A DNA stretch of 64,000 bases from Planctomycetales bacterium (GTDB lineage Bacteria > Planctomycetota > Planctomycetia > Planctomycetales > Planctomycetaceae). Of this stretch, positions 25,917 through 48,659 are shown in pieces (position 1 is the stretch's first letter; each line of letters opens with the position of its first letter). Location of the stretch: the NCBI GenBank assembly GCA_026400835.1, contig JAPLOA010000084.1, positions 62,001 to 126,000 on the forward strand. Reading direction: 5' to 3'. A model generated the notes under the pieces. The model had not been told where the DNA came from. It did no database searches and was given only the letters and a program-made list of their open reading frames with translations. A program made the position numbers and the translations under genes.

Positions 25917-25964
25917 CGCTTATCTTCCCTTAGCAAAGGAGCTTCTCAGTTTTCGATAGGTGCG

Positions 25965-26687
25965 TTAGTGTGAGGTCGAATGCGGATTGATCGGATGATT
26001 TTGACGCGACACGCTTTCTACTTTTGAAATGAGACCATCCTCCATGTGCACCACTCGATCTGCAAAGCTGTAAACGCGTGGATCGTGCGTCACCACAATG
26101 GCAGCTCGATCTGCTGCAACGGCAAGGTCTCTCAGCAAGGTCATTACTGCTTGCCCCGCCTGACCGTCGAGTGCTGCTGTCGGCTCATCGCAAAGCAATA
26201 ACTTCGGCGAGTGCACAAGTGCACGCGCAATGGCAACGCGTTGTTGCTGGCCACCAGAGAGTTGACTGGGAAGCTTGGTTGCATGGGCTCCCAGGCCCAA
26301 TGTCTCGAGCAACACCTCTCCCTTAGAGAGTGCCCTGGGCCAGTCGAATCCACTGGCTACGAGCGGTATCGCGACGTTCTCCGACGCTGTGAGACCTGCA
26401 AGGAGGTTGTATTGTTGAAATATGAAACCAATGTTCTTCAATCGATATGGTACCAGCATCGACGCAGACATGGATGAAACTTCATGATCGAATACATGCA
26501 TTGAACCAGATGCGCCGCGAAGCAGTCCGGCAATCAATGAAATCAAGGTGGTTTTGCCGCATCCACTCGGCCCAACCAGCATGGTTAACATGCCTGCCGG
26601 GGCGATGAAGTCAACGCCTTTCAAAACATTGACTGAACCAGCCGCAGTCTTAAATGCCATCTTGACGCCTTTGCAAATCACGCTCAT
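25965..26687 (-). CDS. ABC transporter ATPase (DevA/MacB-like)
   Basis: The 240-residue ATPase has Walker [10 protein letters not shown], signature [15 protein letters not shown], Walker [13 protein letters not shown] and switch His in VTHDPR. It belongs to the LolD/MacB/DevA subfamily that powers FtsX-type permeases in exporters. ATG 26687 follows GAGG by 6 nt and starts 2 bp after the permease stop, so the genes are translationally close. A longer frame reaching 26888 overlaps the permease and is not used. The next gene, the adaptor, lies 48 bp downstream. Confidence 0.93.
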
Positions 26688-26689
26688 GG

Positions 26690-27835
26690 CTAACCTCGGA
26701 AGACAACGGCTGGGTCTACGGTCAGGACCTTTCGTACGCTGACCACACATGCCAACAGAGTTACCAGAACAATAAAAATGCCCGAACCAAGAAAGATGAA
26801 TGGATGCATAAACATCCCCCGCAAGCCACCTGAGAGCTGTGTGCTCGTCATGGCAAAGAACAGATTGGCAACTCCAATACCAAGGCAATAACCGATGGTA
26901 GATACGAATACAGCCTGCGTCATGATCATCCGAAGTATCACCCAGTTATTGATCCCGATGGCCTTCAAGGTCGCGAACTGCTTCAGGTTCTCAACACTAA
27001 ACATGTAGAACGTTTGCCCCACAATTGCGACGCCGATAACGACTCCCATCAATATCGTTATGCCGAAGTTCTCTGCAATTCCTGAGTACTTCAAGATCCA
27101 CGCTTGGGTGTCGTCCATAAACTCAGCACGTGTTCGAGCTTTCAGGCCAGTTACTTTCGTGATCTGCCTGGCAACCTCTTCTGGTGAATGTTTGGAGGCA
27201 GCACGGGCAAGAACATAGGTCACGGGATTGAGCGTTTCTCTGGCCATGGCCACTCCGAGGCTTCGTCGTGTATAGACGCGAGGCAGTCCACTCCATGAGG
27301 ATCCGATGTAGCAGATTCCTACAACAACAGCACGACGCTGTCCAATTTCGACTGCGGCTCCAACTTGAGGTGCCACCCCGGGAAAGATGTTTGTGTATCC
27401 CGCGATGTCCATGACGATCGCATCCGGCTGATGGAGATCATCCAAGGTCCCAATGAGCATTTCCTGGGGGGCACCGACCATGGATAGATCGTCGATCCCG
27501 ACCAATTGCACAAGTTTCATACGCCCGTCTTCCGTTCGTAATTGTGCAGTTGACTGATAATAGGGTACGGCCCACTGAACTCCAGGCACCGATCGGACTC
27601 GATTCACAGACAACTCAGCAATCGGATAGCCTTGATCAAGCGTTTCCACGCTGGACTTCATCACCCAGATGTCGGCTTGATTGGCTTCGAGAATGTCGCG
27701 AGTCGACGCGTGCATCAACGAATGAAAAATGGCGGATTGCTGACTGATGAGCAAGGTCGCAAACGAGACTCCGAGGACCAACGCAACGTACTTAGCCTTG
27801 TCATGCAGAAGTATCTTAAACGCGACGAGATTCAT
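26690..27835 (-). CDS. FtsX/DevC-type ABC permease
   Basis: The 381-residue protein has an N-terminal helix (YVALVLGVSFATLLISQQSA) and a periplasmic domain of about 220 residues. Three C-terminal helices follow, with the FtsX-like block ENLKQFATLKAIGINNWVIL, the hallmark of DevC-type permeases. With the ATPase and adaptor it should form an exporter of lipids, glycolipids or toxic compounds. Cyanobacterial DevBCA exports glycolipids, but the substrate here is unknown. ATG 27835 follows GGAGA; the frame reads 24 codons further upstream into the tetR end and is not used. The gap to tetR is 22 bp. Confidence 0.88.
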   Translation of the reverse strand: MNLVAFKILLHDKAKYVALVLGVSFATLLISQQSAIFHSLMHASTRDILEANQADIWVMKSSVETLDQGYPIAELSVNRVRSVPGVQWAVPYYQSTAQLRTEDGRMKLVQLVGIDDLSMVGAPQEMLIGTLDDLHQPDAIVMDIAGYTNIFPGVAPQVGAAVEIGQRRAVVVGICYIGSSWSGLPRVYTRRSLGVAMARETLNPVTYVLARAASKHSPEEVARQITKVTGLKARTRAEFMDDTQAWILKYSGIAENFGITILMGVVIGVAIVGQTFYMFSVENLKQFATLKAIGINNWVILRMIMTQAVFVSTIGYCLGIGVANLFFAMTSTQLSGGLRGMFMHPFIFLGSGIFIVLVTLLACVVSVRKVLTVDPAVVFRG

Positions 27836-27857
27836 GTCTGATTTCTCCAGGCAGCGA

Positions 27858-28529
27858 CTATTTCGAAGCGGCTTTCTTCTTCTTTGATTCTGGCAATGGA
27901 AAACCATCGCCGTATCGCTTGACCGAATCCAGGGTCACATTGGCAAGTACTTCAATGAAAGAATCGCCACCGTGTGCTTTCTCGACGACTGCAGGCGCAA
28001 AGTCTTGCAGGATTCGCCGATGGGTCATGAAGGTTGAAGCCAAAAGATGCATGGTGATTACGCCAAAACGCACAGCATCGTTGTCCTTGGGAAGCGACGT
28101 CACTCGACTAACCACGTCGCACAGCCATTCGAATTCGGGCAGATAGCTGTGCTTGAGCACTTTGCGAAACGAAGCAGACGGATCCAGGGCTTCGCGTTCG
28201 ATGAGCTTTATTGGCCATGCAACGGTCTGAGCTGCGTAGTCCTTGATCAGCCACTGAATGGCTAATCGAAGGGCTTCTTCTGGCTTTGCAGCATTCGCTT
28301 CATCGAACAGTGGCAGGGCTTCGTCAGAGATTTTGACAGCCGTGACAAGTACTTCTTCATAGAGAGCTTCCATGCTTCCGAAATGGTAGGGTATCGCTCC
28401 CAGTGAAACGCCCGCCTTGGCTGTCACTTGCCGGGCTGTGACCCCGCTGAATCCAAAGTTCGCAAAGAGTTCGCCAGCAGTCTGGATTACGGCTGACTTC
28501 GTTTTTTCGGAATCGCTCGCTACCCCCAT
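27858..28529 (-). CDS. TetR-family repressor of the DevBCA-like operon
   Basis: The 223-residue protein has the TetR helix-turn-helix at residues about 10-55 (ELFANFGFSGVTARQVTAKA, GVSLGAIPYHFGSMEALYEE) and a ligand-binding helical body with a C-terminal domain like the CecR/DUF1956 group. It lies first in the operon and is transcribed from a promoter overlapping a perfect inverted repeat (28555-28593), so it probably represses itself and the exporter. Starts at GTG 28541, ATG 28532 and ATG 28529 are possible; I chose 28529 because GGAG is 6 nt upstream. The lysine-rich C-terminus (SKKKKAASK) is unusual. Confidence 0.9.
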   Translation of the reverse strand: MGVASDSEKTKSAVIQTAGELFANFGFSGVTARQVTAKAGVSLGAIPYHFGSMEALYEEVLVTAVKISDEALPLFDEANAAKPEEALRLAIQWLIKDYAAQTVAWPIKLIEREALDPSASFRKVLKHSYLPEFEWLCDVVSRVTSLPKDNDAVRFGVITMHLLASTFMTHRRILQDFAPAVVEKAHGGDSFIEVLANVTLDSVKRYGDGFPLPESKKKKAASK

Positions 28530-28554
28530 CATCGTCTCCACAAACGCAGCTTAC

Positions 28555-29272: not shown

Positions 29273-30523
29273 TTACTCCATTGAGGAGAACACGAGGCAC
29301 GCGTTGTGGCCGCCGAAGCCGAAGCTGTTCTTCATGGCTTTACGGATCTTCATGGCTCGCGGCTGGAATGGGACGTAGTCCAGATCACAACGTGGATCCG
29401 GATTGTCCAGATTGATCGTCGGTGGAGCAGTCTCGGTCTGCATCGCTTGAAAACAGAAGACCGATTCAACACCGCCTGAGGCACCCAGCAGGTGACCGAG
29501 TTGACTCTTCGTGCTTGAGACGGCAATTGCATCGGCGTGGCTGCCGAAGACCGTTCGAATCGCACTCGTTTCTGCGATGTCGCCCAGCGGTGTGCTGGTC
29601 CCGTGCGCATTAATGTGGTCAATTTCATCCGGCGGGACGCCAGCATCACGCAATGCAGCCCGCATGGCATAGGCCGCACCTGTTCCAGTCGGATCCGGGG
29701 CTGTCAGGTGAGTCGCATCTGACGACAGGCCGTATCCCATGACCTCACCGAGGATCGTGGCTCCACGCTTTTTTGCAAACTCATATTCTTCCAGAACCAG
29801 AATACCGGCGCCCTCGGAAAGCACGAAGCCATCACGATCACGATCGAATGGACGGCTCGCTTGTTGAGGGGCGTCGTTGCGAGTTGACAATGCTCCCATG
29901 CGAGCGAATCCGGCGATACCCATTGGCGTCAAACCCGCTTCGGTGCCACCGGTCACCATGACATCGGCCACATCCATCTGGATCAGCCGATAGGCATCGC
30001 CGATGGCATTGGTTCCCGATGCACAAGCCGTGCAAACGGCAGTGTTAGGGCCACGCAGACCCCATCGCACGGAGATGTTTCCGCTGGCGGCATTGATGAT
30101 GAGCTTGGGAATCATGAACGCGGAGATTCGATCGGGGCCACGATCAAACAGCATCGAATGCTGCTGCTCGATTTCATCGAGTCCACCGATTCCGCTGCCG
30201 ACCAGAACGCCGTAGCGATAAGTGTCGCCTTCAGACAAATTGATCTTTGCCTGAGTAATGGCCTTTTGTGCGGCGACCATTGCGAACTGACTGAAGCGGT
30301 CGATACGCCGCAGTTCTTTGCTCTCAATCGGCAGATGCGGCAGCGGGTCGAAGTCTCGGATTTCGCCTCCGAAACGCACCTTAAAGTCGCGACAGTCAAA
30401 CCGTTGAACGGGACCGACACCACTTTTTCCTGCACAGACCGCTGCCCAGACGTCGTCCAGTTCGCAGCCAAGCGGAGTGACAACGCCAAGCCCGGTCACT
30501 ACTACTCGACGGCGTGACATCAT
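29273..30523 (-). CDS. fabF: 3-oxoacyl-ACP synthase II (FabF)
   Basis: The 416-residue condensing enzyme has the Cys-His-His triad: Cys167 in TACASGTNAIG, His307 in NAHGTSTPLGD and His344 in QLGHLLGASG. It carries the KAS II pattern VVVTGLGVVTPLG at the start and AMKNSFGFGGHNACLVF near the end. It elongates acyl-ACP by condensation with malonyl-ACP in the cytosol. It lies downstream of acpP on the same strand with a 145-bp gap, the standard acpP-fabF order. The ATG at 30523 is followed at once by a second ATG. Confidence 0.96.
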   Translation of the reverse strand: MMSRRRVVVTGLGVVTPLGCELDDVWAAVCAGKSGVGPVQRFDCRDFKVRFGGEIRDFDPLPHLPIESKELRRIDRFSQFAMVAAQKAITQAKINLSEGDTYRYGVLVGSGIGGLDEIEQQHSMLFDRGPDRISAFMIPKLIINAASGNISVRWGLRGPNTAVCTACASGTNAIGDAYRLIQMDVADVMVTGGTEAGLTPMGIAGFARMGALSTRNDAPQQASRPFDRDRDGFVLSEGAGILVLEEYEFAKKRGATILGEVMGYGLSSDATHLTAPDPTGTGAAYAMRAALRDAGVPPDEIDHINAHGTSTPLGDIAETSAIRTVFGSHADAIAVSSTKSQLGHLLGASGGVESVFCFQAMQTETAPPTINLDNPDPRCDLDYVPFQPRAMKIRKAMKNSFGFGGHNACLVFSSME

Positions 30524-30668: not shown

Positions 30669-30899
30669 CTATTGCTTACCTTCGATGTAGGTGATCGCAT
30701 TCCCCACCGTCTTGATCTTGTCGTAATCCTCGTCTGGAATCTTGACGTCGAATTCGTCTTCAAGAGCCATGACGAGTTCAACAATATCAAGGGAATCCGC
30801 CTTCAGATCATCAACGAATGAACTGGTGCGGGAGATTTCTTCTTTAGGGACGTCAAGCTGATCGCTGACGATACCAATCACTTTTTCTTCAATCGACAC
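30669..30899 (-). CDS. acpP: Acyl carrier protein
   Basis: The 76-residue acidic protein has [20 protein letters not shown], with the serine of DSLD as the phosphopantetheine site, and ends ITYIEGKQ. It carries growing acyl chains for FabF encoded just downstream. GTG 30899 is the start because GGAGG lies 9 nt upstream and the length matches the usual 77; the frame opens eight codons earlier at an ATG without a binding site. Confidence 0.95.
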
Positions 30900-31507
30900 T
30901 GATGCTTTCCTCCAGCGAAACAAAACACTGACAGATGTTTTCGAACACCGCCAGTCGTCCGGGGAACTGCTCCGGGCACCTGCTCCAGTCGCAGGCGATC
31001 GTCCGGTCCGCGAATCGTGCGGAAGATATATCGGGTTTGCGAATTCGTGTAAACCCGTTTAGCCGGGCAGTCTGCCTCATTTCCGGAGTGCGGGTCAATT
31101 TTCTGCGACATCATTAAGGTGACGGGCTTGTTTTGCCCGTCAGATTCGGAGTTTCGGAGAGAGTTCGCTGGATTTATGGATGTTCACCATCGATTTGGGT
31201 TTCTCTGCCAAGTCGGGGTTCCCGGAATGCAATACTCCGCAGGATATTCAAGCCGTGAATAGCGAGGGCGTAATCGGGCGAATTCGGGCGGGTTGGTTTG
31301 CGGCGGGCGGTTGGGGCTCTATCCTGCGTTTCCATCTTTCACCTGCGGCGATGCTGCCAGGGTGATTATTAAATCCGCCCTTTGCCCTCCGCGCGCTTTG
31401 ATGCCATCAATTCCCTCCGACATCAGTCCTGCCAGGTTTCCCGCTGCGGCATCATTTTCTGATTCCGACTGTGGGGCCGACTCGCTGCGATTTGCAAGGA
31501 GCGTTCC
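30900..31507. other. Intergenic region upstream of acpP and the BatA operon
   Basis: This 608-bp divergent region should carry promoters for acpP (minus) and the BatA operon (plus). It has an 8-bp inverted repeat TGACGGGC/GCCCGTCA at 31120-31142 without a T-tract. AAGGAG precedes the ATG at 31508. No other gene was seen. Confidence 0.45.
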
Positions 31508-33697
31508 ATGACATTCCTGAATGGAGCCCTCGCGTTCGGAGCTTTGGCGTTCGCTGTTCCACTCATTATTCATATCCTGAATCGAAGCCGATTTCGTACC
31601 GTCGAATGGGGAGCAATGCATCTCCTTGAGTCGGTGATTAAAGTCAACCACAAGCGGCTCCATGTTGATCAACTGATTCTGCTGTTTGTGCGTTGTGCGA
31701 TTCCCGTGTTGCTGGCTCTCTGTCTGGCTCGCCCTGTTCTGACCGGCTCCCGATTGCTTGAAGGTGACTCGCCGGTTTCGTTGGTGATCCTGCTCGATAC
31801 AAGTTATTCGATGGACACTGTCGATCCGTCAGGCTCGCGCTTTGAAAAAGCCGTTGATGCGGCTTGTCAGATTGTGAATACGGTCAGTCGAGGCTCTGAG
31901 GTTGCTGTCATTCAAACGGGTGGTCGTCCGACACCATTGTTTGATCAGCCGGTCTTTGATAGCGAAGCTGTTGTTCGTCGGCTGCGGCAAATTAAGGCCG
32001 GGTATGGGGCCAGTGATATGCAGGCTTCACTCAACGAAGCGTTGAAGACGGTCGATGCGATGTCACATGCTCGCCGCGAACTGATCGTGATCAGCGATTT
32101 TCAACCGGCGGATTGGCAGGCGATTGGGCAAAACACCGCCGAAGCCATTCGAGGGCAAATGGCCTCGCTGAAGATTCCCCCGGCATTAACTTTGTTGCCG
32201 ATTGGTCAACCCGTCAACAGTAACATCTCTGTTGAGTCTCTGGAGTTTCCTCGCCGCGCGCTGGGCGTTGGCCAGCAGATTTCTGTGCGAGCGAATCTTC
32301 GCAATCACGGCAGCACGCCGATTGAGAATGCTCGTGTTGTTTTAAGGTTGGACGGAGCGGAATCGTCCGTTTCGCAGATTGCTCTCACGGCGAACGGGAC
32401 GACTCAAACACTGTTCCCCTGCTCTTTTGAGAAAGCGGGCTCGCATGTGATCGAAGTCGAAGTCATCGCCGACGATTCTCTGAAAGACGATAATCGTTAC
32501 GCAGCGGCCGTTACAATCTGGGACGGTATTAACGTGTTGCTGGTTGATGGTGATCCCAGCGGGCAGCCTCTGCAAAGTGAAACTGATTATCTGTCGATTG
32601 CTCTGACGCCGTTTACTTTTGGTCGAGTACGTTTGGCGGATCTTGTGCAGACCCAGACCGCGCAATCGAAGGATCTTACGGAAGAACGCCTGAAGACTTC
32701 GCGCGTCGTTGTGTTGGCGAACGTCTCAAAGCTGGAACCTGCTCAAGTCTCCGCGTTAACGGCTTTCGTCAACGACGGCGGTGCCTTGCTGGTCTGTGCC
32801 GGAAACAAGATTGATTTGAATTGGTATCGCGAGCAGATGTTTGCCAATGGTGGAGGACTTCTGCCAGCGGCGTTTGGGATGCTGAAAGGGCTAACCGAGT
32901 CCGACGGGAAAGCTGATGCGGCCGCCGGAACTCTCAACAAGAGCTCTCATATTGTCGCTCAGCATTTCGATCATCCGGCTTTGGAATTCTTTAACGAGCC
33001 GGCCAATGGTGATTTGTCGACGGCGGAGATTCGACGCTGGCATGAGCTGGCCGATGTGGATAGTCGCAGCGACGTCGCGGTGTTGGCACGATTGGATTCC
33101 GGCGATCCGCTGTTGATCGAACGTCGAGTTGGGGATGGCGTTGTGCTTCAAATGGCGACGGCCTGTGATGCGGACTGGTCGGATTTGCCCGTGCGGCCTT
33201 TGTATGTTCCGTTGATGCAGCAAATTATTACGACGATGGCTTCGGGGATTTCTCCGCCACGAAATATCGCGACCGGTGATCCCGCTGTTGCGATGTTACC
33301 CGGCGCCGAACAAGCGACAACATTGTCGGTGGTTACTCCTGATGGGGCTCGTCGAACTCTCAATACAACGCCTCAAGGTAAACTACAATTGGCGCGGTTT
33401 GAGGAAACTCAACGGCCTGGCGTGTACGCCATGTCAACGCCTGCGGCCGAAACGATTCACTTTGTTGCCGAGACTTCTCGCAGTGAATCGGACTTGAGTA
33501 CTCTGCCTGAAACGGCGTTGGTCGAGTTATCAAAGAGTCTGGCATCCACGCTGATCAAATCTCCGGCAGAGTATCTTGAACAGGATCGTCTGCGACGACA
33601 CGGCCAGGAGATCTGGAAGTACGTACTCGCGGCGTTTTTGGCGTTCATGTTTCTGGAACTCGTTCTGCAACAACGATTCGCGAGGGTTCGTCTATGA
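31508..33697 (+). CDS. BatA-like membrane protein with von Willebrand A domain
   Basis: The 729-residue protein opens with the BatA N-terminal domain (AFAVPLIIHILNRSRFRTVEW), has a second helix (IPVLLALCLARPVL) and then a VWA domain with the MIDAS start LLDTSYSMDT (DxSxS). After the VWA comes an Ig-like segment, then a class I glutamine-amidotransferase-like domain (ALTAFVNDGGALLVCAGNKI), and a C-terminal helix (YVLAAFLAFMFLELVLQQRF). VWA/BatA proteins are linked to stress tolerance and surface complex assembly, often with MoxR ATPases; none is in this window. The stop overlaps the next gene's start (ATGA, 33694-33697), so translation is coupled. Confidence 0.85.
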   Translation: MTFLNGALAFGALAFAVPLIIHILNRSRFRTVEWGAMHLLESVIKVNHKRLHVDQLILLFVRCAIPVLLALCLARPVLTGSRLLEGDSPVSLVILLDTSYSMDTVDPSGSRFEKAVDAACQIVNTVSRGSEVAVIQTGGRPTPLFDQPVFDSEAVVRRLRQIKAGYGASDMQASLNEALKTVDAMSHARRELIVISDFQPADWQAIGQNTAEAIRGQMASLKIPPALTLLPIGQPVNSNISVESLEFPRRALGVGQQISVRANLRNHGSTPIENARVVLRLDGAESSVSQIALTANGTTQTLFPCSFEKAGSHVIEVEVIADDSLKDDNRYAAAVTIWDGINVLLVDGDPSGQPLQSETDYLSIALTPFTFGRVRLADLVQTQTAQSKDLTEERLKTSRVVVLANVSKLEPAQVSALTAFVNDGGALLVCAGNKIDLNWYREQMFANGGGLLPAAFGMLKGLTESDGKADAAAGTLNKSSHIVAQHFDHPALEFFNEPANGDLSTAEIRRWHELADVDSRSDVAVLARLDSGDPLLIERRVGDGVVLQMATACDADWSDLPVRPLYVPLMQQIITTMASGISPPRNIATGDPAVAMLPGAEQATTLSVVTPDGARRTLNTTPQGKLQLARFEETQRPGVYAMSTPAAETIHFVAETSRSESDLSTLPETALVELSKSLASTLIKSPAEYLEQDRLRRHGQEIWKYVLAAFLAFMFLELVLQQRFARVRL

Positions 33698-36609
33698 CAA
33701 CACTGCGATTTGTTGGCGATGTTCCGCTGTGGGCCGGGTTGCTGTCCGCATTGATCGTGTGCGTGCTGTCGTGGCGTTACTACAGCCGCGAAAGTTTTGA
33801 TCTGCCGCGTCGACTTCGCTGGCTGCTGCCATTGCTTAGGTCTTCGGCGTTTCTGCTGGGAATTCTGATGCTCACCGGGCCGGTGTTGCATCATCGCATG
33901 ATTCTTGGCGAACTTGGCCGAGTCAAAATCTATGTTGATGATTCACGCAGCATGACGATGCAGGATCGTCACATGTCGACCGGGAGAAAATTGCTGGTCG
34001 CTGAGCAGCTGGGTTGGATCAGCGCGGGGCGAATCGATTCGAAACTGCTGAAACTTGCGGATCAGTTGTCTGAGGCTCGGCAGGGATTTGTCGATGCGAT
34101 TGCTCCGAAGAGTACCGCACCGGTGAGCGATCCCGGAGCCGTGAGTTCTGATGCAGCACCACCTGCGGTGGCCGATCCCAAAGCTGCCGATGCCGCAGCA
34201 AGTAGCCCGTCTGTCAACGCGGCCCCTGCTGTTTCGGCCAGTGCTGTTCGCTCTGCGGTTGATGTGTTTCGTTCACGTTTGCTGGAGTTGAAGACGTCTC
34301 TGCCGTCAGAACTCTCTGAGCGATATCAAAATGAGTTGCTTCTGCCGTTGGATTCGACTGCCTCCACAATTGACGCAGACGCTGCCGCCGCGGCGAATGC
34401 ACTGGTCGCACTGGCCAAAGTCTGTGAATCGCTCGAAGGTTCAGTCCGCGGTTTCTTTGAGGCAGAGGTTTCGCGGATCGTTGAATCCGGCGATGAGTCG
34501 ATTCGCTCGGCGCTTGCCATGTTCGATGAAACTCCGCGATGGCGTCGGTTGGAGATGGGGCTATCGGAATCATCTGCAAAGATTCTGGATAAGCTTCGGG
34601 AGCAGCATGATGTTGAATTGCTGCGGTTGGCGGGTGACAAAGCGGAGTTGCTGGGCAGTCCGGCTGCAACTTCCGCCAATGATGGAGTCGATAAGAAATC
34701 TGAAGGCGAATACGAAAGAAGTGTCGAGGACTTTTCCAGTGTCACGGACCTGAGTTCCGGAATCGTGGCGACTCAGAAATCTGTCACCACATCGGAGGAT
34801 TCTGGCGACACACCAGCGACAGAGACCAAAGCCGCTGATGCTGCTCAGGCGAAGACTGCGATTGTTCTGATCACTGATGGTCAGCACAATTCCGGCCCAT
34901 CGCCGTTGCAGACAGCACAGGTGTTAGGAGGTCAGAGTGTTCCATTCTACAGCGTGTCGCTGGGAGCGTCACAGCAGGCTGCGGATTTGGCGGTGATTGG
35001 CCTTGAACACCCGGATCTTGTGTTCCAAAAAGATCATGTTCGCGGTGTGATGGTTGTTCGTGATCAGATGACGCCGGGGAAACCTTTTGTTGCACAGATC
35101 AGCTATCAGGATCAGGTGCTTTGGCAGCAGCAACTGGAAACTCAGAACGTTGCCGAGCGACGGATTGAATTTGATTTTGAGATCGATGAACTCGTCACAA
35201 AACTGGGAGCGCAGTTTGCTTCCGACATCAAGCAGCATGCCGTGCCTTTGGAGTTTCAGGCGTCGATTGCCGCGTTGCCCGAAGAGTCCGAAACGGACAA
35301 CAATCAGCGCGCGATGAGACTGGCCGCTATCGTCTCAAGCTACAAGGTTTTGTTGATCGATGGACGTTCCCGCTGGGAAACGCGCTATCTTCGCAACGTT
35401 TTTGAACGCGATGAGCAATGGTCGATCAACACTGTGATCGTTGGGCCGGGAACTGATCACGCGGGTCTGACAAGAGGTGAAGAAGAGGGACAGTTCCCGG
35501 GCAAGCGAGAACAATTGTTTGCTTACGATCTGGTGATCTTCGGCGAAGTTGCTCCTGAGCTGTTTAACGAGCAGGACTTTCAATGGCTGAGTGAGTTTGT
35601 GGAAACTCGTGGTGGCGGCATCGTGTTTATCGATGGTCAGCGAGGTCGCCTGCGACAGCTCGCGAGTACGAAGCTTGGAAGTTTGATTCCCGTCGAGTGG
35701 CTGAACGAAACCATTTCGGCCAAGCCGACATCGCTGCAATTGACGGACAAAGGGGCCTCAGAAAGTGCGTTGCGACTATCGCCCGATGCGGAACAGAATC
35801 GTCGCTTCTGGACTGAGCTGCCTCCGCCTCATTCGCTGGTGGCTGTGAATGCTTTGCCCGGGGCTGAAGTTCTGATTGAAGCGAATGTGGATGGTCGACA
35901 ACGGCCAGCGATGGTGACGCGATTGTTTGGTTCGGGACGAGTTGTCTACTTCGCGTTCGATGAATCCTGGCGCTGGCGTTTCAAGACGGCCGATCTTTGG
36001 CATCAGCGAGCGTGGAATCAGTTGGCGAAATATGTGATGCCAAGGCCGTTTGCGGTCAGCGACGAATATGTGTCGCTGGATACAGGCTCGGTGCGTTACG
36101 ACTTTGGAGCGACTGTTGATGTTCGAGCACGTCTGCTGGGCCTGAATGGAAAACCGGCGACTGGTGTTTCTGCTGACGCTCTGGTGTGGAAAGAGGGACG
36201 CATCGTTTCAACGGTAAGCCTGACTCCCGATGCCGATGTGCCGGGGATTTATCGAGGACACGTCGCGGCCTTACCGGAAGGCGAGTACGAAGTCTCGGTT
36301 CGAGCTGCCGGCTATAGTGATGCCGCTTTGAAGGCTCGCAGCCGGTTTGTGGTGCTACCACCGGAATCCGGCGAGATGACTCAGACTTCGGCCAATGAAA
36401 CGTTGCTGAAACAGATGGCCGCAGCTTCCGGAGGAGATTACCTTCGCGAAGAGGAACTGTTTCGATTGCCGGAGCTGTTGAGTCCTCTCAGCAGCGGCCG
36501 AGTGGTCGAATCCGACACGCAGATCTCGCAGAGCTATTGGTGGTTTGCCGCAATTGTTATCCTGTTGACGGCTGAGTGGGTGTTACGAAAACGAGCTGGG
36601 TTGCTTTGA
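33694..36609 (+). CDS. VWA-like / glutamine-amidotransferase-like membrane protein
   Basis: The 971-residue protein has two N-terminal helices (WAGLLSALIVCVLSW, LLRSSAFLLGILMLTGPVL). A VWA-like domain follows whose first motif VDDSRSMTM keeps DxSxS and which later reads VLITDGQHNSGPS. A long alanine/serine-rich insert of about residues 130-350 splits the VWA domain. The second half has a class I amidotransferase-like fold (YDLVIFGEVAPELFNEQDFQ, GGGIVFIDGQRG), an Ig-like segment and a C-terminal helix (WWFAAIVILLTAEWVL). It shares architecture with the preceding gene, so the two may be diverged partners in one membrane complex. Function unknown. Confidence 0.75.
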   Translation: MTTLRFVGDVPLWAGLLSALIVCVLSWRYYSRESFDLPRRLRWLLPLLRSSAFLLGILMLTGPVLHHRMILGELGRVKIYVDDSRSMTMQDRHMSTGRKLLVAEQLGWISAGRIDSKLLKLADQLSEARQGFVDAIAPKSTAPVSDPGAVSSDAAPPAVADPKAADAAASSPSVNAAPAVSASAVRSAVDVFRSRLLELKTSLPSELSERYQNELLLPLDSTASTIDADAAAAANALVALAKVCESLEGSVRGFFEAEVSRIVESGDESIRSALAMFDETPRWRRLEMGLSESSAKILDKLREQHDVELLRLAGDKAELLGSPAATSANDGVDKKSEGEYERSVEDFSSVTDLSSGIVATQKSVTTSEDSGDTPATETKAADAAQAKTAIVLITDGQHNSGPSPLQTAQVLGGQSVPFYSVSLGASQQAADLAVIGLEHPDLVFQKDHVRGVMVVRDQMTPGKPFVAQISYQDQVLWQQQLETQNVAERRIEFDFEIDELVTKLGAQFASDIKQHAVPLEFQASIAALPEESETDNNQRAMRLAAIVSSYKVLLIDGRSRWETRYLRNVFERDEQWSINTVIVGPGTDHAGLTRGEEEGQFPGKREQLFAYDLVIFGEVAPELFNEQDFQWLSEFVETRGGGIVFIDGQRGRLRQLASTKLGSLIPVEWLNETISAKPTSLQLTDKGASESALRLSPDAEQNRRFWTELPPPHSLVAVNALPGAEVLIEANVDGRQRPAMVTRLFGSGRVVYFAFDESWRWRFKTADLWHQRAWNQLAKYVMPRPFAVSDEYVSLDTGSVRYDFGATVDVRARLLGLNGKPATGVSADALVWKEGRIVSTVSLTPDADVPGIYRGHVAALPEGEYEVSVRAAGYSDAALKARSRFVVLPPESGEMTQTSANETLLKQMAAASGGDYLREEELFRLPELLSPLSSGRVVESDTQISQSYWWFAAIVILLTAEWVLRKRAGLL

Positions 36610-36640
36610 ACGGTGATGGCTGGCGGAGATGTGATGTATT

Positions 36641-36706
36641 CGTTTAACGGCAAGCCGCAGGCGAACCTGAACCTGGACGCCACCGCCTGCGGCTCGCCGT
36701 TAAACG
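36641..36706. repeat. 23-bp inverted repeat between operon genes
   Basis: CGTTTAACGGCAAGCCGCAG begins at 36641 and its arm runs to 36663; the right arm lies at 36684-36706. The arms match at 22 of 23 positions and enclose a 20-bp spacer. Located between the second and third operon genes, it could act as an attenuator or be a REP element. Confidence 0.8.
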
Positions 36707-36799
36707 AAATTGCGAATCGCGAGAGATGATCTTTTGTAGTCAGATGGTATCAGGCAGCATGGTTGCTGACAGCACGGTGCACATAAAGGAAGATTCACG

Positions 36800-39700
36800 A
36801 TGAGTGTTTCGCTTGATCCCGTTGTTGCTCGAAAACTCGAAGAATTCGGACGCCGTCGGTTTCGACTGATCGTCGCGCGAGGACTCTGCGCGGGCGTTGC
36901 CACGTTTTTGATCTGTGTCGCGATCGTGGCCGCGATCGACTGGTATTGGCTGCTCAGCGATCGCGCGCGCTGGGCTTTGAGTGCGGCGATTTATTTGCCG
37001 GTGCTTGTAGTTATCTGGACGACCAGCCTGCGGCGGATTCTGCGTCGGCCGTTGAGAGAAGAGATCGCATCGCAGGTGGAGATGACAGAACCGCAGCTTC
37101 GAGAGAATCTGCTCTCGGCTGTCGAACTGGCGACGGATGATCCTTCCACTCTGCACGACTCCCCGGTCTTTCGAAGTTTGCTGCAGGGCAAAGTGGCCGA
37201 GCAGATGACTCGGATCGAAGTCCCGGCGTTGCTGCCTCTGAAACTTGTTGCGCGCTGGATGGCGGTTGCGGGAGTTATCGTGGCGATCGCCGCGGTGCTG
37301 CTGTTGTCGAGTGATCATCGTTATCGTCAGCTTGCCGCCCGTGCGATCCTGCCGGGAGCCAATATCGCGCGGGTTTCTCGAGTCAACGTTGAGATTTTGC
37401 AGCCGACACCGCGCTCGCTGATAATGGCCGAAGATGAAACAGTCGCTGTCGTCGCCTCTGTTACCGGCGGCAGTTTTGAGGAAGTGACACTCGAGACCTT
37501 TACGGAGAAACAGGGAGCCGTTCGACAATCGATGCGTGGGCGAACGGAGGCTGAGTTCACATCCAACATTCATGTGATGGACGAATCGGTTGAGTATCGG
37601 ATTCTTGCCGGTGATGCGGTGACCGAGCGATTTCGAATTGAAGCCCGTCCGCGTCCTCGTGTGACAGCGTTTTTGAAGACGTTCGTCTATCCGGCCTATG
37701 CCTTATTGCCCGACAGGAAGGTCACGGAGAACCATGGCGATCTGCTGGTGCTGGAAGGCACGAAAGCGGAAATGCAGCTTGAACTCGATCAGCAGGTGTC
37801 CGCTGCGGAACTGCGAATCGATCCGTCGGAATCCGATGAGATGATCGCTATCCCGTTGGTTCAAGTCGCGGACAGCCAGAACGGTTTGCAGTGGAAGGCG
37901 ACTGTTCCTGTCGATGCGGCGGCGATTTACAAGGTGCATCTGGTTTCTAAAGAAACAGGCTTTGAAAATCTCTTCAGTCCGAAGTACGAGATTCGACCGC
38001 AACCGGATTTGATCCCGCGTGCGGGTTTCGTGGATCAGAAAGAGACGACTCTGCTTTTACCGCCCAATGATATCGTGGCCCTGAAAGCGATGGCGGAGGA
38101 CGATCTTCCGCTGGTCAAGCTGGAGCAGCATGTTTCTGTCAACGGGCTGGACTGGATCGCCCTGCCTCTCGATGCGAAACCGGACTCGGAGACAGAAGGT
38201 CGAAGCCTGACGGCCGAGTGGCAATGGGATCTGCAGAATCACAAACTGAAAACCGGAGATCAGGTGCTCACGAAGCTTGTCGCCACTGATCGCAAAGGCA
38301 ATATCGGTGAATCGATCCCGTTGCGAGTGATCGTGGCCGCGCAGGACTTCGATCCGGATCGGCACACGATGATGGAACGCAAGATCGAACTTGTCGATGA
38401 GCTGGCGAAGTTTTCGGAATTGTTTCAGGAGCAGAAAGTGACGGCTCTGGAAGTTATCGAACGACTGCGAAAGCCGGAGCAGACCGAAGAGCAGGCGTCG
38501 CGGGATCGTAATGTGCTGACGGATCTGGCCAGTAAGCAGCGCGAGCAGGCTGAGAAGATTCTGGCCAACATCCTTGCGGTTGAAAAAGACATGGCGGCCG
38601 GTGCTGATGCTTATGATCTGGATTTGATCGGGCGAGTCGTCGCAAGAATACAACGCGAGTACTCAAACGTCCCGGTGTTTGCGTTGAAGGCTCGGCAGCA
38701 TACCGAAGATGTGAATCGCAGGAATGGCGATCTGGATGTCATCAAACAGACATTCGAGCGAACAGCCGACGATGCTAAAATGATCCATGAACACTATCAG
38801 GTTCTGGCGACTCATAACTTCGTCACGGCTGTGGCGATTGATATGGATGCATTGCTGCGTCAGCAAAAGCTGGTCGTTGACAGCCCGACACAAACCTGGG
38901 AACGATTGCAGCGCCAGGAAACTTTGGTGCTCAATCAAATCAAAGGAATTGAGCAGCTTGTTCGGGGTCAGCGTAAGCGACTGCCGAAGTATCTCGAAGG
39001 CCAGCTGACTGAGATGATCCGCTGGACGGAAACGAATCGCGATCGACTCCAGGAGTCGATGGAGTCTGCCGAGAAGCTGGAACAGTTGAAGACGGTTTCA
39101 AAAGAACTGCATCGTCAGTTGCAGGATCGGCAGCGGTTTGATGTCGTCGACGGAAATCTGTCTAATCGAATTGTGAATGCCTGGCGAGATCTCGATAACC
39201 GCGCTGGAAATCTTTACCTTCCGATCGACCAGTTAGCGAGAGCCATTCAGCAGGAGAATCAACTGACGACTCAGGCGGCCGCGTCACAGGATTCCGCCGC
39301 AGGTCAGAAAATTCTTGATCAGGCCGAACGATTTGTGGCGGAGATTGATCTGAAGCATCGGCGAAGTCTTGATCAGCTTCGAATTCGCAAAGAGCTGACT
39401 CAGTCCCGCAAAGATGGTGATGCTCAGTATGTCGCTGATGCCGGTTTGGCTCATCGTGCGGTGATTTCGTTGCTGAATCAACATCGCCAGGTGTCACCAC
39501 AGGATTCAGCGATTGCAACGCGTCTTCTGGAGGTTGCTCCGGCTTATCGAATTCTCGAAGCCGGACATGAACTCACGATTGTGCGTGATGCTCTGGACGA
39601 ACTGACCAATCTCGAACGCTGGGGATCACAGGACCTGCAGGCTCGCATCGAGCATCCTCGTGTCTGGGATCTTGTACAGCGAGGGTTCGAACTGGCGAGT

Positions 39701-42496
39701 CAGCGGCTGCGTGAATCGGGCGTGAAGAATGAAATCGTCGGCACATTTGATCAGACTCGCTGGACGGCGGAAGCACGCGATACAGCTCGCAAGATTACCG
39801 AGCGACGTTGGAAGCGCGAAGCTTTGATCAGTGCTGGGCATGAGCTGGTGCAAATCCGGGATCAGGTTGCTGTCGTGATCAGGACGCTTGAACCTGTGAT
39901 GGAGGATGCTCGAAACGTCATTCGTCGATATTCACCAACGATCCCACAAATGGCGGCTCAGACGGCCGAGCAGATTCGAGAACTTGAAGAAGCCACAACG
40001 GAAACAGCCGACGTCGTCGAGCAGCAAAATACTTCGCCGCAGAACCCCGAGGCTACTCAGCAGCTGGAAGAGCTCGAGCAGCTTCAGGAATCCATTAATC
40101 AGCAGATCGCGGATTTGACCGAAGCGTTGGTTGAGGACGCAAATGCTCAGGATCTGCTGGAAGAATCTGAGCGCGAACGTGCGAGAGATGCGGATGATAG
40201 TATCGCTATGATTCAGGATCCGGCGACCAAAATGAACGAAGCCATGGAGAAGGCTCAGGAGCAGGCCGCGCCGGAAGAGCAGGCGAAAGAACTTGCTCAG
40301 GCGGCGGAACAGCAGGAGAAAGCGGCGAAGGCACTGGAACTGGTCGCTGAGCATTTCGATCAGCTCGACAAGGGCCTCGACGTGGCCGACACACGAGCCG
40401 AACTGCGAGAAGCCGAGAAGGAACTGGGAATTGTTGAGTTGCTGGATAAACAATATGACACCAGCGAAGAGCTGGTGGAAATGGCGGAGAAGGAAACGTC
40501 GGAGTTGATCTCGGAACTTGAAGCGGAGTTGCAGAAGAACCCTGCGATGCAGAAAGCTCTGTCAGAGATTTCGCAGACGGCTTTGGAAGATGCACGGAAC
40601 GCGTTGGAGTACGCAGCCGAGGATGACAAGCAACTTCAAAGGGCGAACGAGCAGGCCGATCAGGAGTTTCAGGCGAAGAAGCGAGATCTGGTGCAGGATC
40701 TTCGCGAAATGGCAGCGGACGCGTCACAGCTTTCCGGAGCGTTGATTGCTCAGGCCAGTCAGTCGGCGGCCCAGGGCAAGACAACAGAAGCTCAGAAAAA
40801 GCTTGCAGAGACTCAGCAGAAGTTGAATGAAGCCGCGGCGAAAGCGAACTCGGCCAGAGAAGAATTATTGTTGTCCGAGTTAGCTCAGACGGTTCAGGAG
40901 ACGAAAGCGACATTGGCTCAGGCGACAGAGACACTGAAGCAAGCCAGGGAAAAAACGCAGGCGGGCAAGGATGAGAAGATCCATGCCGATGACAAAGCCC
41001 GGGAAGCGCAGAAGGTGGATTCGGAGAAGCGTCGTCAGCAGTTCCATGAGCAACAAAAGAAAGCTGCGGCGGACGTTGCCAGGCGAGCAGATGATGTCCA
41101 GAAACGAGCGGAGCAGGGAGTTCAGGCTGCCGAGAAGAATTTGGCGGCGGTCGATGCCAGAGTTCAGCAGGCTCAGACCAAACTCAACGAGAAGCCCGAT
41201 AACGCCGGCCTGAAGAACGCACTCGCGCAGGAGCAGGTTCGTCAGTCGGCCGAACAGAAAAAAGTCGCGGCTGCGAAGACTGTTCTGCAGGAGGCTCAGG
41301 TAAAGAGTCAACAGGCCAATCAGCGGTCTGAAGAAGTTAAGAATAAGCCTTTGCCAGCCCTGGATGCCCAAAACCCGGCGACTCAATTGGCCGATCAGTA
41401 CGCTGATGAGGCGATGAAAGCGGCGGAGCAGTTGAACAAGAAAGCGGATGAAGCGGTGGCCGCGGCCAACTTCGGCAATGAACTTTCGCCACCGAAGAGC
41501 TCGCTTGCACAGGCCGAAACGCAGCAGGGCGAGATCACCGAGGATGTGGCGAGTGCTTCGGAAGATGTGTCCCGAGCAGCCCGACATGAACGCCGCTTGA
41601 ATAATCCGACGGTTGCTGAGCCGCTGCAGAAAGTGGCTGACAGTATTCAGCAGGTGGCTCGCAATGAATCGAATATGGCGGAGCAGCAATTGAAGGCAGC
41701 AGCGACTGAGGCGGAGCAGGCTGAAGCCAATGCCCTCGCGAATCCTCAGAATAATCAGCCGCAGCCTAATGGTCAGGCACTGAAAGCTCAGCAGGATGTT
41801 GCCAAAGCAGAGTCTGCGATTAATCAGCAGGCCGGAAATCTTTCGGCGGTTGTCGATCCATTGCTGGCCGCTGCGGCTGCAGCAGAAGCGGCTGCTCAGG
41901 AGTCCGGGGAACCATCGCAGGTTGCTGCGGCAGGGAACCAGGCTGATGGGGCGACTGCGACTGCGCCTGCAGCGGCTGATGGGAGTGATAGGAACAATGA
42001 GAGTAAGGGGAATGAATCGGCTGCGGCTGCGGAGTTGACACCGGAAGATATGGCTCGTGGGGAACAATTAGCACGGACGCTGGATGAGCTGGACAGGTTG
42101 CAGGCGGAAGCGGCTGTGGCATCTCAGACGAATGCTGATGCTGCTCAGGCGGCGTTGGCTGCTCAGAGAAATGCAGCGCAATTGGACACGCTGGCTCAGG
42201 CCGCGCGGGCACAACAGGCTGCTCAGGCGGCTGCGAGACTCCGCAATCAGCAGGAGACGATGGCGGCTCTGGGATTGGGGGGAACTCAGTCTGCCGATTC
42301 GGCATCGACGGAGCCGCGAGTTGCAGATTTTGAAGTGACGCCTGTGAATCGCAATGATGGAAAGAACTGGGGCAAACTTCGCAGCCAGTCGGCAGAGGAT
42401 CTGACAAAAGGCAAATCTGAAGTTGTCTCTGAGGAGTATCGCAAGAGCGTTGAGACCTACTTCAGGGTCCTTGCGGAACGTGCGAAGAAGAAGTAA
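36800..42496 (+). CDS. Giant coiled-coil membrane protein (DUF4175-like N-terminus)
   Basis: The 1898-residue protein has three hydrophobic helices within the first 180 residues ([53 protein letters not shown]). A periplasmic beta-rich region of about 180-520 follows, then more than 1200 residues of Glu/Gln/Ala-rich heptads. The C-terminal part is almost pure coiled coil with runs such as [20 protein letters not shown]. The N-terminus resembles DUF4175-type proteins. AAGGA precedes the ATG. It is third in the BatA operon and probably forms a long periplasmic or envelope-spanning filament or scaffold. Composition bias limits finer annotation. Confidence 0.75.
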
Positions 42497-42524
42497 CGAA
42501 GGGAAGGTTATTTCTCTTGAACTT

Positions 42525-43673
42525 ATGAGCTGGTTTCAGACTGAAAATCGAATGCGAGCAAAAATGCGGTTCTCTTTCCTCCTGTTGATGATGGTCGTGC
42601 AACTTCTGCTGAGTAGATTCGCTTCCGCCCAGGAAGCGGTGAAGCCAGTGGCCGATTCTCCGCAAGTCCCATCGGTCTTTCAGAAAGACGAAACCGATCT
42701 GGCGCTGGACCGAGCGATTGCTTATCTCATCAGCAAACAGCGTGAAGATGGTGCGATTCTGGATAAGGGGATCGATACAACGATGACGTCGCTGTCGATC
42801 ATGGCCATGGCCAGCGTTGGTATTCAGCCTTCGGATGTTTCACCGGAAGGTCAGGCGATGCAGAAAGCTCTGGCGTTTGTGCTGAAGGAAGATCGAGTCG
42901 ACCCGAAGGGATACTTCGGGGCCAAAGATGGATCTCGCATGTACGGACACGGCATCATTACGTTGATGTTGACCGAAATGCTGGGGATGGGGACAACGAT
43001 CGAACAGGATCAATTGATTCATGATCGATGTCAGAAAGCAATTGATGTCATTCTGGCGTCGCAGAAGCAGAAGAAGCCAACTCACTATCGCGGTGGCTGG
43101 CGCTATGAGCCGCAATCAGCCGACTCAGATCTCTCCGCAACGGTCTGGCAGTTGATGGCTCTTCGATCCGCGAAGAATGATGGACTGCAGGTTCCAGCCG
43201 GAGCCATTGAAGACGCGGTCGCATACCTGAAGCGATCATACGCCTCGCCGCTTGACGAAAATGGCTTGCCTGACAAGAAGGCCAGTGGGTTCACTTATGA
43301 GCCCAATCAGAACAATCCCACATTTACGATGACGGCTGCGGGATTATTGGCGATGCAGGTTTGTGGCGAATATGAATCGCCGCTGGTCGCCGGAGCAGCT
43401 GATTGGCTGTTGGAGCATCCACCGAAATGGGAGGAACGATTCTGCTTTTATGGAACGTACTACTACGCTCAGGGGATGTATCAGCGCGGCGGCAATCACT
43501 CGGAGACTGCTCAGAAGCTTGTGCAGGAAATGCTGCTGCCGAAACAGGCGGGTGATGGTTCTTGGACCGCAGCCAACGGCGAAGAGAAAAACCACGGAGC
43601 TGTCTATTCCACGTCGATGGCCGTTCTGAGCCTGTCTGTGAAATACCATTATCTGCCGATTTATCAGAAGTAA
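42525..43673 (+). CDS. Secreted terpenoid-cyclase/prenyltransferase-fold protein
   Basis: The 382-residue protein has a signal peptide after ATG 42525 ([18 protein letters not shown]) and alpha/alpha-barrel repeats typical of squalene-cyclase-like and prenyltransferase-like domains: [35 protein letters not shown] and [20 protein letters not shown]. No DxDD cyclase motif is visible, so it is probably not a true triterpene cyclase. It closes the BatA operon, 28 bp after the coiled-coil gene; similar genes accompany such operons in planctomycetes. ATGs at 42552 and 42564 are other possible starts. Confidence 0.75.
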
Positions 43674-47414: not shown

Positions 47415-48659
47415 TTAACCGTGGTCATGATCGCGGCTGCAATCGTGGTCATGATCATGGTCGTGCAGGCAGGTTTCCCACGGGCTGAAGGGATCTTCGA
47501 GCGAACGCCAGACTTCCGGCCCGCCCTGCATTTCCGCATCGGTCAGCAAGCACTCATTGATTGCGGCTTCGATTTCCGCGGGATTAATCTGTGAAATGAT
47601 CAGAAGCTCCTGTCGGCGATCGCCCCATTGCTCGTTCCAGACAGATTCCAGTTCTGCGGTGAAGTCGGGATCATCCTGAGGCCATTCGCTGCGATCGGTC
47701 TCGGCCCACCATTTGCCAGCGGGTTCCGCAGCCATCACCTGGCCGGCCTGAGACCAGAATCCGGACATCGTATTTCGCGTGGCCAACCAGAGATTTCCTC
47801 GAGATCGCAGGATACTCGGGGCAAGCTCATGTTCCATCCAGAAGTCCCAAAGTCGCTGTGGGTGAAATGGCCGATTGGCTCGAAAATAAAAGCTGGAGAT
47901 GCCAGAGATGGATGAATCTGCATCCGGGTCTGTCTGTGATTCCTCCGAAGATCGGCCGCCTGAAGTATCCGGGAAACGGCCCGTGTCAACGACATCTGCA
48001 ATCGGGACTTCGCCATGAATTGCGAGGACGACTTTGGCTTCCGGGTTGAGGTGTCGTAACAAGTTCATGATCAAACCTTGGTCCTCAGGAGAGACAAGGT
48101 CTGATTTATTCAGCACCACAACATTCGCGAACTCAATCTGATCCACCATCAGCCGGACGAGATCCCGATTGTCTTCTTCGTCCAGTCCGATACCAAGCTC
48201 ACCAAGTTCATCTGTTGAGTTGTAGTCGTTCAGAAACGTTTCTGCGTTAACAACGGTGACCAGAGTGTCGAGCGTGGCGACATCGGCCAGTGAGTCACCA
48301 TTCTCATCGACATACAAAAAAACCTCCGCCACGGAAGCTGGTTCCGCGACACCGGCCGCCTCGATCAAAATGCTGTCGTGGAGACCTTGCTGAGCAAGTT
48401 GCCAGACGTCAGCAAGCAGATCTTCGCGAAGGGAGCAACAGATACAGCCATCGGTCAATTCAATAAAAGATTCCCCGGGCTGTTCTGCGATCTGGTCGTA
48501 TTCGACAACTTCCCGGGAATCCTCGTGATCCGGGTCGTTCAGTGAATTCTGGATGACGCCCATGTTTTTTTCACCGCGATTTCTCAGCAGATGATTGAGC
48601 AGGCTGGTTTTGCCTGAGCCCGGAAGTCCGGAAATGAGAGTAACGGTTGGCTTTTTCAT
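47415..48659 (-). CDS. CobW/COG0523-family GTP-dependent metallochaperone
   Basis: The 414-residue GTPase has Walker A GLPGSGKTS, the family CxCC motif GCICCSLRED (Cys72, 74, 75), VLNKSDLV as the base-recognition motif and the C-terminal CobW domain. It ends in a metal-binding tail HDHDHDHDCSRDHDHG. COG0523 proteins deliver zinc, cobalt or nickel; the tail and motif suit zinc. No zinc-responsive operator was found upstream. It stands alone on the minus strand; the ABC exporter with a His-rich loop at 50.9-52.9 kb lies beyond purE-purK. Confidence 0.92.
   Translation of the reverse strand: MKKPTVTLISGLPGSGKTSLLNHLLRNRGEKNMGVIQNSLNDPDHEDSREVVEYDQIAEQPGESFIELTDGCICCSLREDLLADVWQLAQQGLHDSILIEAAGVAEPASVAEVFLYVDENGDSLADVATLDTLVTVVNAETFLNDYNSTDELGELGIGLDEEDNRDLVRLMVDQIEFANVVVLNKSDLVSPEDQGLIMNLLRHLNPEAKVVLAIHGEVPIADVVDTGRFPDTSGGRSSEESQTDPDADSSISGISSFYFRANRPFHPQRLWDFWMEHELAPSILRSRGNLWLATRNTMSGFWSQAGQVMAAEPAGKWWAETDRSEWPQDDPDFTAELESVWNEQWGDRRQELLIISQINPAEIEAAINECLLTDAEMQGGPEVWRSLEDPFSPWETCLHDHDHDHDCSRDHDHG

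Follow-up and report, generated by a model that had tools for sequence, protein, structure and literature searches.

MoxR/VWA operons of the Bat (Bacteroides aerotolerance) and DUF4175 kind occur widely; to our knowledge, there is no agreement on their function. In Rhizobium leguminosarum, the operon RL3499-RL3502 is reportedly linked to the shape of the cell and the integrity of its envelope, as the title of a 2011 study by Vanderlinde has it; it is likened to the locus treated here by description only, in being MoxR-led. Excerpts of other published work describe a MoxR ring plugged by its VWA partner in NorQD (PMC9976466), ascribe to the Rhizobium MoxR protein RL3499 an important part in membrane integrity and cell shape (PMC3893208), and present AdvA of Acinetobacter as a division protein with a DUF4175 domain and transmembrane helices (PMC7481262). 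Here we analyzed a window of 64,000 nucleotides (positions 62001-126000 of contig C72) from the 7.58-Mb draft genome, labelled G000, of a Planctomycetales bacterium, in which four consecutive plus-strand genes, G1 to G4, encode a BatA-type membrane protein, a second VWA membrane protein, a giant protein and a secreted-looking alpha/alpha-toroid.

On balance, we lean toward reading G1-G4 as the membrane and periplasmic part of an operon of the order MoxR-DUF58-BatA-VWA-DUF4175-toroid; the products of the operon would act as a machine for envelope maintenance, driven by MoxR/VWA and equipped with a rod in the periplasm. The basis in hand is the gene order, the domains, a head, rod and tail found fused or separate, the conserved tail, the DxSxS motifs and the absence of catalytic residues. 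We take envelope maintenance as the best reading because of the MoxR/VWA couples and the envelope role of RL3499 described in the excerpts of PMC9976466 and PMC3893208. An initial sequence-only reading had proposed an envelope-spanning machine, of which the envelope machine remains the best reading; the spanning is unsupported, and the modelled rod is broken into many helices.

The open reading frames (ORFs) of that reading were confirmed in coordinates and lengths, as was the ATGA overlap that joins G1 and G2 at 33694-33697. G1 (31508-33697, 729 residues) matches BatA (PF07584, 5e-14), VWA_2 (PF13519, 1e-16) and the NCBIfam two_anch model (3e-21), which bears out its assignment as a BatA/VWA protein; a CARDB match lies barely above its cut-off, and a glutamine amidotransferase (GATase)-like region is weak and below cut-off. 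By hydropathy, G1 has two N-terminal transmembrane segments and one C-terminal, while G2 (33694-36609, 971 residues) has the two N-terminal ones, the C-terminal segment above threshold being seen in G1 only. The VWA domain of G2 is weak (PF00092, 4e-4, under its cut-off), and its GATase-like/DUF7408 region is likewise below cut-off; in the alignment, DxSxS is separated from a later DG motif by about 280 residues of low conservation, with the GATase-like region after them. A search of solved structures by sequence gave no match for G1. Compared with the Bat operon, the window shares the BatA-type transmembrane hairpin plus VWA domain of G1, and MoxR and DUF58 accompany these genes in relatives; it differs in adding a second large VWA protein, a DUF4175 giant and a secreted toroid, in having no BatD or TPR (BatB/C/E) match in G1-G4, and in lacking a directly upstream MoxR and DUF58, which lie on contig C84.

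That no MoxR or DUF58 gene is in view holds locally: neither was found among the 10 window proteins around the operon that were scanned against Pfam, the one exception being the VWA domain of G1 itself, with a weak DUF58 match (15.6 bits against a cut-off of 23.4), and none of the 14 MoxR and 13 DUF58 matches of the genome falls on C72. A MoxR or DUF58 remnant 5' of G1 was also sought and is absent from the best 15 tblastn matches. At the end of C84, a MoxR gene and a DUF58 gene stand side by side, sharing 85% and 84% identity with the copies in the operon. The missing pair beside G1 is thus a local split in the window genome, with the pair on another contig. In G024, a genome of the same family, MoxR-DUF58-G1-G2-G3-G4 follow one another on one strand of one contig.

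We then compared 18 genomes of the genus, taking E<=1e-30 as a close G3 and at least 70% identity as a close DUF58. A close G3 occurs in 13 of the 18, and a close DUF58 in 11 of these 13 and in none of the five others (Fisher one-sided p=0.0025, kinship ignored); because the presence of DUF58 tracks that of close G3, the MoxR-DUF58 pair appears to go with G1-G4 even where unlinked. The pair is joined to G1 or further in eight of the 11 (G149, G151, G156, G157, G158, G159, G161 and G162); in G151 and G158 the contig ends inside MoxR. It is not adjacent to G1 in G000; in G164 the ORF after DUF58 is convergent and matches none of the six profiles; and in G163 one contig stops just past DUF58 and another starts inside G1. 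In G153 and G160, which have no close DUF58, the contigs that carry G3 measure 6.6 and 7.5 kb, so assembly gaps may account for the absence of that gene.

Gene order was followed further in 22 named loci, all from metagenome-assembled genomes of Planctomycetaceae or other Planctomycetota, several of them being contigs of the genus genomes or of G111. Where the upstream side is visible, G2 precedes G3 in 20 of 21 loci (the exception is L175, and L184 has an extra ORF between them), and MoxR plus DUF58 precede G1 in 12 of 14, with a 152-residue ORF intervening in L167; of 12 loci with a complete G3, 11 continue into G4, L167 carrying a different gene there. The genes are therefore conserved together, and the order with MoxR and DUF58 that the sequence-only reading had suggested looking for in other planctomycetes is found, complete in G024. 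Across the phylum, the G3 head is present in at least 93 of 149 genomes and G2 in at least 141, often several per genome. For the first 100 of the 150 head matches listed, a listed G2 lies no more than 6 kb upstream in the same orientation in 31 cases (no more than 600 bp in 20 of these), and in no case does one lie within 8 kb in the opposite orientation. BatA and DUF58 domains also occur in control genomes, for example Caulobacter and Bacteroides. A literature search returned nothing on MoxR with DUF58 in planctomycetes, nothing pairing DUF58 with DUF4159, and nothing on a MoxR operon and cell envelope integrity in R. leguminosarum.

The giant G3 (36800-42496, 1898 residues; 1843-1946 among 14 full-length orthologs) is a three-part chain, composed of a DUF4175 membrane head with immunoglobulin (Ig)-like domains, a helical rod and a conserved C-terminal tail. 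The full-length protein has no match in Pfam, NCBIfam or PADLOC. Its first 527 residues, the head (36800-38380), match the N-terminal half of DUF4175 (PF13779) above the curated cut-off (30.5 bits against 27.3; profile positions 11-397 of 825, short of full coverage), which confirms the suspected DUF4175 relation; at the looser limit of E<=1, 11 of 12 alignment members match, G3 included (best 2e-13). The length, the unrecognised second half of the profile and the fused tail set G3 apart from DUF4175 proteins. Hydropathy places transmembrane segments at residues 28-46, 56-74 and 153-171, and residues 1-180 comprise the membrane part and a loop thought to be cytoplasmic (about residues 79-150), whose block 101-150 is the second most conserved of the 50-residue blocks of G3 (0.74). 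A solved-structure sequence search with the head gave three matches, all at E 0.73 or worse.

AlphaFold models were made for residues 1-1130 and 770-1898, with mean predicted local distance difference test (pLDDT) values of 75.2 and 75.7. The membrane part is modelled as helical at low to medium confidence, followed by Ig-like strands at about 194-512 (pLDDT under 50 at 400-436). The rod (residues 528-1842, 38381-42325, delimited by the models and by composition) appears in the stretch 519-1701 as about 34 separate helices, most of 11-67 residues with short loops between them, and after about residue 1701 as helices and low-confidence Ala/Gln-rich linkers (low-confidence stretches at about 1698-1747 and 1818-1854). 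The models thus suggest a helical array more than a single continuous coiled coil, so that the giant coiled coil of the sequence-only reading survives as a helical rod part and not as one coil, the protein having a membrane and Ig-like head besides. Foldseek with the model of residues 1-1130 found only generic Ig-like chains and dynein-containing long helical assemblies. Detectable homology of the rod (residues 528-1700) to distant relatives was rejected, as only the head and tail profiles match in the 17 loci listed.

The last 56 residues (1843-1898, 42326-42493) form the conserved tail, with a core of about 45 residues and the motif WGxL...EYRxxVxxYFRxLA. Its model consists of two helices, 1854-1870 (pLDDT under 50) and 1878-1896 (better). 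The tail recurs in distant relatives whose rods have no detectable sequence likeness. A profile of 11 tails matched 41 of 895 called proteins, a set that includes overlapping loci and the sequences used for the profile, and none in reversed or shuffled sets; each of the 40 domain matches that pass the limit stops no more than 14 residues short of the C-terminus. In the phylum sample of 149 genomes, 78 have the tail at E<=1e-4, with 121 matches. Of these, 23 (18 genomes) lie within the open frame of a G3 head, the frames spanning 789-2657 residues; 28 (25 genomes) lie in another frame downstream of a head on the same strand within 9 kb, against a roughly estimated chance expectation of about 0.14; and 70 have no head nearby among the head matches listed. 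Judged from sequence, the 51 of 121 matches with head and tail in one ORF or in neighbouring ORFs constitute a Rosetta-stone link.

Loci of the same class display the separate form. In L211 and L212, a head gene of 1208 or 1326 residues is followed by a 284-residue tail protein, while in L210 and L214 the head, a Gln/Glu-rich or Glu/Ala-rich coil-like protein and the tail are three consecutive genes, the coil-like and tail proteins having signal-like N-termini as judged by eye. Therefore, G3 of the window looks like a fused form of head, rod and tail that relatives often encode separately. No tail protein scored above the curated cut-offs of Pfam (L210, L211, L212, L213) or NCBIfam (L210, L211, L214). 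L210, a paralogous operon in G121, continues into NPCBM and trypsin/PDZ protease genes. A further tail-bearing locus was seen in the genome of the window itself (L213, contig C65, 6050-11385, minus strand; weak, E 0.0099 and 1e-4), in which a 378-residue tail protein is followed by NPCBM, trypsin-like and trypsin/PDZ genes, matching the order after the L210 tail gene. These neighbours fit envelope work of the wider family; they say nothing direct about the window copy. Another observation concerns L113 in G064 (contig C166, 7190-8029, plus strand), where a 279-residue protein stands divergent from a MoxR operon; it starts with a hydrophobic stretch, which a linker rich in Gln and Lys joins to the tail.

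G4 (42525-43673) was first called mechanically as an ORF of 416 residues at 42423-43673 with a TTG start at 42423. Starts at 42525-42564 agree with a signal-like N-terminus and with a 376-residue ortholog in L166, so G4 probably begins after the G3 stop without overlapping it. Its matches to squalene-cyclase/prenyltransferase-type profiles all lie below cut-offs, the counterpart in L211 reaching PF13243 at 7e-10, above cut-off, and a solved-structure sequence search gave none. Hydropathy shows one hydrophobic stretch, at the N-terminus, as in a secreted protein. Like squalene and oxidosqualene cyclases and prenyltransferases, G4 is recognised, if weakly, by toroid profiles; unlike them, it is short (about 380 residues), with a signal-like N-terminus and no DxDD. 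In 18 G4 proteins DxDD is absent, DxD[LI]S standing in 17 and VSDIS in one, which rules out a class II terpene cyclase. The secreted cyclase fold first proposed for G4 is accordingly retained as a signal-like N-terminus and weak toroid likeness, without the cyclase motif.

Conservation in the two VWA proteins was examined in the alignments. The DxSxS of the metal ion-dependent adhesion site (MIDAS) is intact in 19 of 19 G1 orthologs and 21 of 21 G2 orthologs. The nucleophile position of the GATase-like region holds Cys in none of the 21 G2 sequences and, without conservation, in some of the 19 of G1. An active amidotransferase in G2 is ruled out by the missing catalytic Cys; of the VWA/amidotransferase-like description given to G2 earlier, the VWA part holds by its DxSxS, and the profile matches are below cut-off. 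Since DxSxS is kept while the GATase Cys and DxDD are absent, the assembly seems built for binding and mechanics, not for chemistry.

In the envelope-maintenance machine as we picture it, a cytosolic MoxR AAA+ ring with DUF58 as soluble VWA adapter would act on the loop of the G3 head and also on the transmembrane hairpins of G1 and G2, and ATP-driven movement would be transmitted across the membrane. On the outer side, a single periplasmic assembly would be made up of the MIDAS VWA domains of G1 and G2, the toroid G4 and three parts of G3 (Ig-like part, rod and tail), and its task would be to maintain or remodel the envelope. The charge distribution under the positive-inside rule suggests that the G1 and G2 VWA domains and G3 beyond residue 171 are outside, to which the signal-like N-termini, by eye, of the separate coil and tail proteins also point. 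Complex formation and energy transfer among these parts are what we infer, and envelope integrity as the job is a guess. As a tentative extension, the operon may encode an envelope machine widespread in planctomycetes, with a MoxR/DUF58-driven three-part periplasmic stalk, kept as one chain or as separate secreted proteins, in which the tail would be a previously undescribed docking element for a MIDAS VWA domain or for G4 and would close the far end.

Several observations weigh against this machine. G048 and G069, of the same family, have G1-G4 with neither MoxR nor DUF58 upstream; G111 (L185) has only DUF58 there, and L170 neither. MoxR is one gene away in G056, with DUF58 absent from the stretch. 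Five of the 18 genus genomes have no close G3, so the window-type copy is dispensable, although in one of the five, G152, a more distant G3 that has the tail is retained. The window genome has nine BatA matches (one below cut-off) besides its 13 DUF58 and 14 MoxR matches, and with so many parallel MoxR/VWA loci partners could be shared. The tail profile was itself built in part from 10 of the 23 fused tails (and from none of the 28 separate ones), and the G3 models rest on 14 sequences, with medium confidence. Leptospira without bat genes is described, in an excerpt of PMC3557215, as having no growth, morphology or oxidative phenotype.

Among other explanations, a dedicated maturation chaperone of the NorQD/CoxD type, which would insert metal into or remodel one secreted or membrane enzyme held by G3 and G4, seems to us rather unlikely. 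In the excerpts of PMC9976466 and PMC3893208, MoxR/VWA pairs of known function mature specific enzymes, and the intact DxSxS of G1 and G2 would suit that role. NorQ/NorD likewise pairs an AAA+ MoxR with a VWA protein; here, going by their sequences, one soluble VWA protein (DUF58) and two membrane VWA proteins are predicted. Against this explanation, no metalloenzyme gene was recognised in the operon, Pfam having been run on 10 window proteins; nothing in the window corresponds in position to the genes that flank the loci of 11 relatives; and G4 is a single toroid without DxDD. We give little credence to a structural tether, in which G3 would be mainly a stalk fixing the spacing of inner membrane and outer layers in planctomycetes, with an ATPase that only assembles it. 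A conserved head and tail around a rod that varies in sequence and in length (the fused frames given above) would be expected of such a stalk, but the models split the rod into separate helices, and 176 nm of one straight helix is unsupported. A Bat-type aerotolerance or oxidative-stress operon is improbable: the BatA N-terminal domain and VWA of G1 and the MoxR-DUF58 upstream in relatives recall it, while Pfam and NCBIfam give no BatD-type or TPR match among G1-G4, and the role is unsupported in Leptospira according to the excerpt of PMC3557215. A defence system is very improbable, because, although MoxR and VWA modules figure in conflict systems described in an excerpt of PMC7159879, PADLOC gave no match for six proteins at E<=0.001, Pfam and NCBIfam reported no effector domain for G1-G4, and relatives of the head and G2 are as common in the phylum as stated above.

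On the 5' side of the operon lie fabF (29273-30523, minus) and an acpP-like ORF (30669-30923, minus, named by eye); acpP-fabF was rejected as a conserved flank, being present only in the window among the loci searched. The flank genes of the 11 relatives' loci have weak, paralog-level matches in the window, none at the corresponding place; going by ORF sizes, the downstream flank may be retained in G163, the nearest species. Further off are an efflux-type cluster of HlyD-type adaptor, DevC/FtsX-type permease and TetR/CecR-type regulator (24873-28541, minus) and a CobW/ZigA-like GTPase (47415-48659, minus; NF038288, 402 bits, under the cut-off of 600). The 190-bp spacing between G2 and G3 contains a palindromic dispersed repeat resembling repetitive extragenic palindromic elements (36632-36710; GTTTAACGGC...GCCGTTAAAC), which also occurs at the ends of contigs C84 and C50, one copy lying 3' of the unlinked DUF58 on C84. 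It has at least 79 matches, both strands counted, at about 40 places in the genome, with 40 of 176 candidates scored. The C84 end and the C50 start have 142 bp in common at 96% identity.

We consider the head-rod-tail architecture, with its separate-gene form in relatives, the most interesting part of this locus. The occurrence of head, coil and tail as separate genes leads to testable predictions of contacts and membrane sides, and the short conserved tail offers a handle for finding further family members and a binding partner.

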